A stretch of DNA of 64,000 nt, from positions 62,001-126,000 of the forward strand of contig NZ_MAXF01000095.1 of assembly GCF_001704635.1 (NCBI RefSeq), read 5' to 3'. How positions within the stretch are numbered: position 1 is the stretch's first letter; every line of letters begins with the position of its first letter. Below, in pieces: positions 35,593-38,540 of this stretch. The stretch comes from Streptomyces sparsogenes (GTDB lineage Bacteria > Actinomycetota > Actinomycetes > Streptomycetales > Streptomycetaceae). The notes beneath the pieces were generated by a model that worked only from the letters and a program-made list of their open reading frames with translations, had not been told where the DNA came from and searched no databases. Position numbers and translations under genes: made by a program.

Positions 35593-36009
35593 TCAGGCGC
35601 TCGCGCAGGCCGGGCAGAGCCCGCGGTAGGTGACCTGGACCGTGGAGACCGCGAAGCCGAAGCGCTCCTCCGCCGGAAGGTCGGCCAGCGGGTCGCCGGA
35701 GGGGTGGACGTCGCGGATGGTGCCGCACGAGGCGCACACCAGGTGCTGGTGCGCGTGGTGGGCGTTGGGGTCGTACCGCTTGGCCCGCCCGTCCGTGCTG
35801 ACCTCGATCACCTCGCCGAGCGAGACCAGCTCGCCGAGGGTGTTGTACACGGTCGCGCGGGAGATCTCCGGCAGGCGCTCGGTCGCCAGGGCGTGTACCT
35901 CGTCGGCGGTGTAGTGCACGTGGTCCCCGTCGAGGACCTCGGCGACGACACGCCGCTGGGCCGTCAGCCGCCAGCCGCGTCCCCGGAGTCGTTCGAGAAG
36001 GTCGCTCAT
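35593..36009 (-). CDS. Fur-family metalloregulator
   Basis: This 138-residue protein has an N-terminal winged helix (LTAQRRVVAEVL ... ISRATVYNTLGELVSLGEV) and a C-terminal dimerisation domain with the metal-site HHAHQHLVCASCGTIRD and a second CPAC pair. Two CxxC pairs form the structural zinc site common to PerR/Zur/Fur members. Which metal or signal it senses cannot be read from sequence; no target gene is adjacent, so a global role or control of a distant gene is likely. TATCAGTCAGATA just upstream may be its own operator. It is cytosolic. Confidence 0.9.
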   Translation of the reverse strand: MSDLLERLRGRGWRLTAQRRVVAEVLDGDHVHYTADEVHALATERLPEISRATVYNTLGELVSLGEVIEVSTDGRAKRYDPNAHHAHQHLVCASCGTIRDVHPSGDPLADLPAEERFGFAVSTVQVTYRGLCPACASA

Positions 36010-36020
36010 GCCAATTCACC

Positions 36021-36033
36021 TATCAGTCAGATA
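36021..36033. promoter_or_regulatory. Candidate operator of the Fur-family gene
   Basis: TATCAGTCAGATA has TATC/GATA arms and lies 12 bases upstream of the Fur-family start codon. It is AT-rich in GC-rich surroundings. Confidence 0.35.
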
Positions 36034-36138
36034 AGGCAAGGGTAGCAGTGGGCCGGTCCATGATCAGAACCGGTATCACTCTCCATGCCTTCTTGACTTA
36101 GACGACGTCCAAACCCCTCGCACGCCCGGGCGCCGGGT

Positions 36139-36558
36139 TCACCCCGCGAGCGCCGGCGCGGGCCGCCGCGCGCCGGTCCAGCAGCGGATGATGTCGCGCA
36201 CCGACACCACGCCCACGGGGTCGCCCGCGTCGAGGACTATCAGGTGCCGGAAGCCGCCCCGGGCCATCGCGTGCGCCGCCTCGTCGAGCGTCCACTGCGG
36301 GGCGGCGAAGACGACGTCGGAGGTGGTGTGGGCGTGGGCCCGCTCGCGGTCCGGGTCCTCGCCCGCGCCCAGTGAGTTGAGGACGTCGCGCTCGGTCAGG
36401 ATGCCGAGCCCGCTGGTATCCGGGTCCAGCACGATCGCCGAGCCGACCCGCCGGGCGGACATCAACCGGGCGGCCTGACGCAGCGTATGGGCGGGGCCGA
36501 TGGTGAGGACGACCGAGCTCATGGCGTCGCGGACGAACATGGGCGGGGACAGGGTCAT
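36139..36558 (-). CDS. CBS-domain pair protein
   Basis: This 139-residue protein consists of two CBS domains (about 8-62, SVVLTIGPAHTLRQAARLMSARRVGSAIVL type, and 75-130, RHLIVLDAGDPVGVVSVRDII). CBS pairs bind adenosine nucleotides or similar ligands and regulate partner proteins. There is no other domain, so it probably acts as a free sensor. The ATG at 36558 has a strong AAGGAGG about 6 bases upstream; an upstream in-frame ATG at 36648 has none. It stands alone; target unknown. The region 36559-36778 between this gene and the mobile element holds nothing recognisable. Confidence 0.88.
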   Translation of the reverse strand: MTLSPPMFVRDAMSSVVLTIGPAHTLRQAARLMSARRVGSAIVLDPDTSGLGILTERDVLNSLGAGEDPDRERAHAHTTSDVVFAAPQWTLDEAAHAMARGGFRHLIVLDAGDPVGVVSVRDIIRCWTGARRPAPALAG

Positions 36559-36778
36559 GAGCCCTCCTTGGTGAATCCTTACTGCGACGGTGGGTCCTTG
36601 CTGCGACTCCTCATGGCGCAGACGCGCTGCTGGGATGCACAAGTTCACAAGCGCGCGGATTCACATGCTCACATGAGGGCGTGGACGCTCACAAGGGGCG
36701 CGCGGAAGCCGATCCGCCGCATGCCGCGCCCCCGTGCCCCGGACCGCACGAGCCGGTCCCCGCCCAGAGCGGGCCCTA

Positions 36779-36990
36779 GGGGGTGTCTTGTGGATCATGC
36801 TGTGCTCCCGACGCCTGGCACGCCCGCCCCCAGCTACCGCTGGGAGGTGCCCCCGGCTGCGTTGTCGTCGTCGCACGCAGCGCCGCTGCGCTCTCCTCCT
36901 CCGCCTTGCGGCTGGACGCTCCCCCAGCTACCGCTGGGCGGTGCCCCCTGACGCCGCTCGCTGATCCAGCCTGATCCACAAGACACCCCC
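36779..36990. mobile_element. MITE-like non-autonomous element, 212 bp, flanked by TA
   Basis: Perfect 19-bp terminal inverted repeats, GGGGGTGTCTTGTGGATCA at 36779-36797 and its complement at 36972-36990, extend imperfectly a few bases inward. TA flanks both ends (36777-36778 and 36991-36992), as expected of a TA target duplication. Inside are two direct copies of CCCCAGCTACCGCTGGG, each a small hairpin, and no transposase. The right end abuts the hisN stop codon. The ends look like those of common Streptomyces transposons, but I cannot name the family from memory alone. Confidence 0.8.
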
Positions 36991-37784
36991 TAACCGCCCA
37001 GGTGGCTCAGCAGTTCGTCGTGCAGCAGGCCGTTCGAGGCCGCCGCGTCACCGCTGAGCGGCCCCGGTACCCCGTCGAGCCCCGTGAAGCGGCCGCCCGC
37101 CTCCTGCACGATGATCGCGTTCGCCGCCATGTCCCACAGCGACAACTCCGGCTCGGCGCAGATGTCCACCGACCCCTCGGCGACCATCATGTACGGCCAG
37201 AAGTCGCCGTAGCCGCGCGTCCGCCAGCAGGCCCTCGTCAGCTCCAGGAAGCCGTTCAGCCTGCCGCGCTCCTCCCAGCCGCTCAGCGAGGAGTACGCGA
37301 ACGACGCGTCCTCCAGCCGCGCCACCCGCGACACCGCCAGCCGGGTCGCGGAGGACAGGCTCCGGCCGGTGTACGCCCCCAGGCCCTCGGCCGCCCACCA
37401 GCGGCGGCCGAGCGCCGGCGCCGACACCACCCCGACCACCGGCCGGTCGCCGCCCTCGCCGCGCTCCATGAGCGCGATCAGCGTGGCCCATACCGGCACC
37501 CCGCGCACATAGTTCTTGGTGCCGTCGATCGGGTCCACGACCCAGCGGCGCGGCCCGCTGCCCTCGCTGCCGAACTCCTCGCCCAGCACCGCGTCCCGCG
37601 GCCGGGCGCGCTGGAGCGAGGTGCGGATCAGTTCCTCGGCGGCCTTGTCGGCCTCGCTCACCGGCGTCATATCGGGTTTCGTCTCGACCTTGAGGTCGAG
37701 CGCCTTGAATCGCTCCATGGTGGCGGCGTCGGCGGTATCGGCGAGTACGTGGGCGAGCCGCAGGTCATCGTGGTAGTCGGGCAT
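36990..37784 (-). CDS. hisN: Histidinol-phosphatase, inositol-monophosphatase type
   Basis: This 264-residue protein catalyses the penultimate step of histidine synthesis, histidinol phosphate to histidinol. Its family signatures are GEEFG (metal Glu), [15 protein letters not shown] (metal-binding Asp pair) and [18 protein letters not shown]. Actinobacteria use this IMPase-type HisN instead of a HAD or PHP enzyme. The start at 37784 is fixed by TACTGT on the minus strand ending 6 bases upstream, which also predicts a leaderless mRNA. The stop TAG (36992-36990) uses the TA flank and terminal base of the inserted element and is unchanged by insertion. Confidence 0.92.
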
Positions 37785-37865
37785 GGCCGAACAGTATCGA
37801 CACGGAATCGGCCGATCCACACGACCGCGGCCGGACGGGGGCGCCCGGGGCGCACGCCGGAGCTA

Positions 37866-37890
37866 TTGACACCACCTGGCGGTGCGTCAA
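37866..37890. promoter_or_regulatory. Candidate TetR operator and promoter
   Basis: TTGAC (37866-37870) and GTCAA (37886-37890) form an inverted repeat, with CACC/GGTG nested inside. It lies between hisN and the TetR gene. TTGACA can also serve as a -35. Confidence 0.45.
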
Positions 37891-37940
37891 TTCTGTCCGC
37901 ACGTGCCGCCCAAGACGGACGCATGGCCTGGGAGGCGACG

Positions 37941-38540
37941 ATGCCCGCAGCACGTGAATCCTTGCTCGACGCGGCCTTCACCGCGCTCGCCGAGCGCCCG
38001 TGGGCGGGGGTCCGGATGGTCGATGTGGCCATGGCGGCCGGGGTCTCGCGGCAGACGCTCTACAACGAGTTCGGCAGCAAGGACGGCCTCGCGCGCGCTC
38101 TGGTGCGCCGCGAGGCCGAGGCGTATCTGACCGGCGTCGAACGGGCCCTGTCCGGGGCCTCCGGCGCCGTCGCCCCGAACGAGCGGCTGGCGGCCGCGGC
38201 GGGCTGGACCGTACGGGCCGCGGCCGCCAACCCCCTGGTGCGGGCGGTGCTCACCGGCTGCTGGAACGAGCGGCTCCCCTCGCCCGTACGCGCCGCGGCC
38301 CGCCCGCCCCGGCGCGGGGGCGGCCCCGACCCACTGCCCTCGCCCGTCGAACTCCTGGGGCAGGTCAGGGACCGCGCGGTGCGCCTGCTGGCGGGCGACT
38401 GGCCGCAGGACGGGGCGGCGGAACTCGGCCGGGCCTGCGAGACGGCCGCGCGCCTGGCGCTGTCGTACGTGGTCGCGCCGGTGGCGGAGGAGCGGGGGGA
38501 GAGCGAGGTGGAGAGCCTGGTGCGCGGGGCGCTGGCCTAG
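37941..38540 (+). CDS. TetR-family regulator
   Basis: This 199-residue protein has the N-terminal helix-turn-helix VRMVDVAMAAGVSRQTLYNEFGSKDGLARAL typical of TetR repressors, followed by a helical ligand-binding domain with an Arg/Pro/Gly-rich loop (about 115-135). GGGAGG precedes the ATG at 37941 by 5 bases; the in-frame ATG 37923 is weaker. The gene converges with the SMR transporter gene, its likely target by the usual TetR-efflux pairing, although the operator candidate at 37866 lies on its own side. The ligand is unknown. Confidence 0.9.
   Translation: MPAARESLLDAAFTALAERPWAGVRMVDVAMAAGVSRQTLYNEFGSKDGLARALVRREAEAYLTGVERALSGASGAVAPNERLAAAAGWTVRAAAANPLVRAVLTGCWNERLPSPVRAAARPPRRGGGPDPLPSPVELLGQVRDRAVRLLAGDWPQDGAAELGRACETAARLALSYVVAPVAEERGESEVESLVRGALA

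Follow-up and report, generated by a model that had tools for sequence, protein, structure and literature searches.

A MITE in the hisN stop codon of a Streptomyces genome and the stop-codon insertion habit of its superfamily

The 212-bp element at the stop codon of hisN in the window, i.e. the whole stretch of 64,000 nucleotides under analysis, is a real MITE as judged from its shortness, its terminal inverted repeats (TIRs), a duplication of TA and dispersed copies, and insertion into stop codons is a habit of the MITE superfamily to which it belongs. Very probably, these observations fit together in the following way. The transposase that acts on the MITE in trans would be a two-ORF member of the IS5 family (DUF4096 / NF033580), with CTAG or near variants as its insertion target and a duplication limited to the TA. 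Given that the element, which starts with G and ends with C, supplies its own G, insertion into a TAG or TAA stop would put a TAG in the place of this codon and leave the gene unharmed. Stop codons would thus constitute a major harmless landing site, because CTAG is almost absent in genes and about a quarter of the non-coding CTAGs are stops.

The element at the hisN stop codon

The element and its neighborhood comprise the following features (positions of the window):

36990..37820, minus strand: intact hisN-like gene of the inositol monophosphatase family, with 276 aa when read from the longest start
36139..36648, minus strand: CBS-domain gene (longest ORF), on the strand of hisN and downstream of it
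36779..36990: non-autonomous MITE of 212 bp with TA borders, inverted ends and further copies in the genome
36777..36778: left TA, target duplication
36991..36992: right TA, target duplication; together with base 36990 it forms the hisN stop TAG (minus strand)
36779..36802, plus strand: left TIR, 24 nt
36967..36990, minus strand: right TIR, 24 nt, one mismatch relative to the left TIR
36827..36854: 28-nt hairpin module, copy 1, missing from some sister copies
36921..36948: 28-nt hairpin module, copy 2, missing from some sister copies

The TA dinucleotides at 36777–36778 and 36991–36992 border the element as stated in the original prediction. Including these, the inverted arms measure 26 nt and are 96% complementary. 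The 19-bp terminal repeat claimed earlier corresponds to a perfect core of 19 nt, while the TIR really extends over about 24 nt with one mismatch. A 17-nt version of the core (at most three mismatches) occurs at two places in the window, namely both ends of the element, where shuffled sequences lead one to expect 0.08. Folding of the element with its TAs is much stronger than that of shuffled sequences for each of the two strands (z = −8.0 and −8.3), and Rfam returned no matches up to E = 1 in 36000–38000. The element was also correctly described as lacking a transposase gene of its own: 212 bp are too small for a DDE domain, and its internal ORFs are small.

The adjacent gene, for which we retain the earlier name hisN, encodes a product that matches the Inositol_P family (E = 3.9e-47). 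Its minus-strand ORF ends at 36990–36992, and the stop TAG combines the right TA with the terminal base of the element. When the flanks are joined at the TA, TAG is obtained again, in agreement with the claim that the stop is preserved and hisN intact. The logic behind this claim is right and general, the G being supplied by the element in related copies as well. The empty site at hisN would read CTAA on the plus strand and TTAG on the gene strand, which is a minority context and not CTAG. In contrast, displacement of a natural terminator is not supported: within 36500–37100 nothing terminator-like and no terminator with a U-run was detected, and the native hairpin right behind the hisN stop folds no better than shuffles (z = 0.2).

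Occupation of the same site in all relatives had been named as an observation that would speak against mobility. In the same genus, the element is absent behind the hisN stop in all 22 readable loci (23 fetched); with proteins that are 76–86% identical, these are not strict empty sites. We infer that an insertion event took place at hisN itself. A motif like CTTGTGAACTTGTGAA at 36640–36651, before the CBS-domain gene, is also present behind hisN in many of the loci L067–L089; the element leaves this motif, a possible conserved regulatory site, untouched.

Copies and sister families

As anticipated, further copies exist, so that the second observation named as speaking against mobility, a lack of other copies, is not borne out either. 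The genome that contains the window (8.9 Mb, 275 contigs) harbors 39 matches to the element. Four complete copies carry the same TIR, referred to as family A (L001–L004, including the window copy and thus three additional ones), along with four lone TIR ends; others were found in relatives. Three sister families of the same genome have other TIRs and share part of the interior, i.e. B (L005–L007, L010), C (L008, L009) and D (L014, L015). The exact 19-nt core is rare and was detected in five of 392 genomes of the genus, and a search with TA plus the core retrieved 16 contig stretches, all titled Streptomyces. A degenerate form of the TIR, on the other hand, is present in 52 of 61 genomes of the genus, versus few matches for a reversed control pattern.

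The 28-nt hairpin module has two fixed places in the interior of copies that otherwise match, both of which are occupied in L001, one in L002, the other by a variant in L003, and neither in L004. Throughout the genome it occurs at 29 places (at most three mismatches; control 0), some of them outside recognized elements, e.g. L023. In addition, interiors are common to families with different TIRs: L009 (C) and L015 (D) are 93.5% identical over 62 bp, and L001 (A) and L007 (B) 90% over 71 bp, which gives the impression of an exchange of ends among the families. In genome G344, a family-A end (L097, C1:254816) directly follows GGCCCTGTCGTC, a sequence that looks like the terminus of a different TIR family, and the arrangement might represent nested or hybrid ends. 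Derivatives of only 46–61 bp with little beyond the two TIRs also exist (L109, L149, L155, L157, L159 and L161), and in all six a coding ORF ends at a TA junction.

Frequency of insertion into stop codons

The surroundings of the elements were assigned with a coding classifier based on codon usage and trained on 40 ORFs of the window. It misses some genes, in test and control alike (a TetR-type gene at L187 scored 1.9), and the class "intergenic" hence includes missed genes. Some retrievals had TA in the search pattern and so favored intact stops. A sample retrieved by TIR alone, irrespective of TA, from a search of 61 genomes provides the fairer figure. Among the matches listed, its places derive from 29 of these genomes; the sample contains 138 stretches, which are all listed places but one, with 148 TIR ends. 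Pairing of the ends (at most three mismatches in 18, both flanks 150 bp or longer) left 49 elements, and the remaining ends were dropped.

Among the matches listed, 24 of these 49 paired elements lie in a stop codon with intact TA. The distribution depends on the borders, as demanding TA on both sides also biases towards stops. With TA on both sides, 14 of the 17 elements listed are at a stop and three at none. With TA on one side (18 elements listed), ten are at a stop, one is in the stop frame without TA, one at another coding position and six at none. The 14 listed elements without TA comprise no stop, one case in the stop frame without TA, four at other coding positions and nine at none. 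When all sets are pooled, some of which come from searches that required TA, 26 of the 36 elements with TA on both sides (TA–TA elements) are at stop codons. The first set from the own genome (L001–L015) gave six of 12 elements at stops, and the exact-core search outside this genome three of eight (L096, L100 and L109).

Target preference and the scarcity of CTAG

For 27 of the 36 TA–TA elements, the empty site reads CTAG. The remaining nine deviate in the outer base on one side or both, whereas the base of the element is always G or C. Hence, the duplication consists of TA only, and the G belongs to the element.

This target word is scarce in the hosts. In 800 kb of Streptomyces DNA (25 genomes; L399–L438), CTAG occurs 110 times as compared to about 2028 times expected from composition, i.e. 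it is about 18-fold rarer. Away from TIR-like ends, 107 CTAGs could be classified, with seven in coding sequence, 73 in intergenic regions and 27 in stop codons. Stops thus make up 27 of 100 non-coding CTAGs, versus 7% of non-coding TAs in general; this baseline varied with the sample (26/73, 58/183 and 27/100). The preference for stop codons is therefore likely due to a CTAG target that is nearly absent inside genes.

The observed frequency is nevertheless above this baseline. Among the matches listed, the stop share of 24/49 compares with 27/100 (p = 0.007) or 58/183 (p = 0.02), and the 17 TA–TA elements include 14 stops versus 4.2 expected. For TA–TA elements at CTAG, 13 of 15 among the matches listed are at stops (p = 1.5e-5), a figure that is inflated, since a stop codon protects its TA. 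The target and host composition consequently do not explain the whole stop share. Candidate causes of the excess over the baseline are selection against other intergenic sites, retention of the TA at stops and a benefit of the hairpin at gene ends, each of which could be sufficient.

The last of these options has been considered in its full form, in which the elements are useful at stops, the hairpin serving as a terminator or as a stabilizer of the mRNA 3' end, with copies at gene ends being positively selected. The strong folding on both strands and the excess at stops, both in the comparison with the CTAG baseline (24/49 among the matches listed against 27/100, p = 0.007) and in the TA–TA elements at CTAG (13/15 among those listed, p = 1.5e-5), would suit such a function. 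We regard it as rather unlikely, however, as the region 36500–37100 contains no terminator with a U-run, the TA–TA figure is raised by the protection of the TA in a stop codon, copies of 46–61 bp with little but TIRs sit at stops too, and selection against other intergenic sites would produce the same excess. A broader conception may be put forward tentatively, namely that stop codons are in effect the address of this genus-wide superfamily of IS5-type MITEs in Streptomyces, with a target word almost purged from genes, a stop letter of its own and copies that are retained as portable stop-plus-hairpin cassettes for 3' ends.

Candidate transposases

If the MITE is moved by an IS5-family transposase, as proposed above, candidate sources are the two-ORF ISs of these genomes (NCBIfam NF033580), in which the first ORF encodes DUF4096 and the second a DDE domain; we take them to be the IS427-like group. 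The ends of three such ISs (L180, L184 and L187) have GGATCA and more in common with family A, and in L180 and L187 the TIR takes the form GG(G)NNTGTC....GGATCA. An IS of the own genome (L044) has 15 nt of its TIR in common with family D. In the 11 IS copies for which an end pair was chosen, with pairs picked to begin with GG, the site is CTAG in every case. The classifier places five of these copies at a stop codon (L044, L180, L181, L184 and L189), and L187 adjoins the stop of the above-mentioned TetR-type gene that the classifier missed. When only a single end was read, L199 is located at a stop and L045 is not. Not all of the family fit, since L195 is a DUF4096 IS with other ends and TTAA as its site. 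At L187, a span of 1597 bp (190–1787, limits uncertain) contains an ORF at 335–841 between a TIR-like end and the IS5-type transposase ORFs, which is perhaps cargo, or else two elements are neighbors here.

The autonomous partner that the original prediction called for was not found with the exact TIR in the genomes and loci searched. No IS with the exact family-A TIR (GGGGGTGTCTTGTGGATCA ends) was retrieved from 392 genomes of the genus, neither with the exact core nor with a relaxed TIR, nor from five genomes with up to two mismatches in the core or by the contig search. The DUF4096 loci of the own genome (20 places) and of six relatives (30 of 58 places) likewise include no exact family-A partner. 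Eight of these 50 loci hold a sequence within five mismatches of the TIR, and in L180, L184 and L187 this sequence forms the IS ends. A lead from the relaxed search, L210, turned out to be a solitary TIR located at a different gene's stop and was discarded. Genome G344 contains six forward and six reverse exact TIRs, yet only three DUF4096 matches, all partial. We infer that the hisN copy was moved by a transposase of this IS5-type group.

TA duplication and TIRs would in principle also befit a MITE of the IS630 / Tc1-mariner type, similar to the pneumococcal RUP, which duplicates TA as well. This is quite improbable, given that none of 14 DDE_3 (PF13358) loci in five genomes has TIR-A-like ends (at most five mismatches) and that the TA-flanked end pairs there begin with GTGCCG, GTAGCG, CTGATC/TTGATC, CTGAGG or TGGGAC, whereas similar ends do occur at IS5-family loci.

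Relation to known mobile repeats

Several properties of the IS5-type MITEs described here are already known from other systems, as far as excerpts of the respective papers tell: MITEs as such, duplication of TA, targeting of CTAG or YTAA, and small repeats fused to gene ends. Judging from excerpts of PMC3189936, one parallel is MITEPsy1 from Pseudomonas syringae, a short MITE of 100 nt with 18-nt TIRs that targets CTAG or YTAA. It is reported to duplicate the 4 nt, in contrast to the Streptomyces elements that duplicate TA alone and supply the flanking G and C themselves, and these excerpts make no mention of insertion into stop codons. A mycobacterial IS of the IS5 type with CTAG repeats is described in PMC9241763 (excerpts). 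The actinomycete two-ORF ISs discussed above resemble the MITEs in the form of the TIR (L180, L187) and in their CTAG sites; they differ in carrying a transposase. RUP from Streptococcus pneumoniae is a 107-bp MITE at TA sites that is thought to be moved in trans by an IS; it is tied to IS630-Spn1 and thus to another transposase family, and the excerpts of PMC2229807 draw no link to stop codons. Small mobile repeats at 3' ends of genes are represented by the enterobacterial RU-1 and the Coxiella QMITE2 (excerpts of PMC2759123 and PMC5896051). In the cases given there, the normal stop disappears or shifts its position and a longer protein results, whereas the Streptomyces element rebuilds the stop at the same codon.

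Searches of open-licence papers yielded no title or abstract that deals with MITEs directed to stop codons or with Streptomyces MITEs. Nor did they bring up a MITE superfamily in which about half of the copies rebuild a stop codon. The combination of target word, codon composition of the host and first base of the element would offer a simple, testable reason for the harmlessness of a mobile element. On this basis, stop codons of other CTAG-poor, high-GC bacteria should likewise accumulate IS5-type elements, with TAA being converted to TAG. The annotation of gene ends and terminators in Streptomyces should allow for such elements.

Integrity of the affected genes

When the flanks of the 26 stop-located TA–TA elements are joined, the resulting codon is TAG in 23 and TAA in three cases (L100, L109 and L154), and never a sense codon (TAC/TAT in none). 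The three conversions of TAA into TAG indicate that the third base of the stop comes from the element. Of nine genes that abut an element with their stop, seven match known domains in Pfam and two match nothing; several of the matches, namely a CT398-type zinc ribbon, a methylmalonyl-CoA mutase and a GDSL lipase, extend nearly to the end of the protein, so that these stops look like native gene ends. An argument from reading frame (35 TA ends in the coding stop frame, none in the other two) was dropped, as a control displays the same bias. Of 397 TAs in the sequences flanking the elements, 147 are in the coding stop frame and 27 and six in the other frames, because of Tyr codons, and reliance is therefore placed on the joined-flank codon instead. 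That the insertion truncated a longer hisN, by hitting the TA of a sense codon in frame and creating a premature TAG, is scarcely credible: most relatives do end a few residues further (LNQRY-type ends), and frame alone proves little when coding TAs are mostly in this frame, but the joined hisN flanks give TAG, TAG or TAA is restored in 26 of 26 stop-located elements, and the protein end aligns with that of genome G023 (LLSYLRG), one residue past that of G018 (LLSYLRQ).

Finally, the dependence of the stop on an intact TA predicts occasional protein extension upon decay of this dinucleotide. Four junctions with CA instead of TA were observed at TIR ends in the stop frame (L310, L319, L339 and L390), where the ORF continues into the element with tails such as QGLSFGS.
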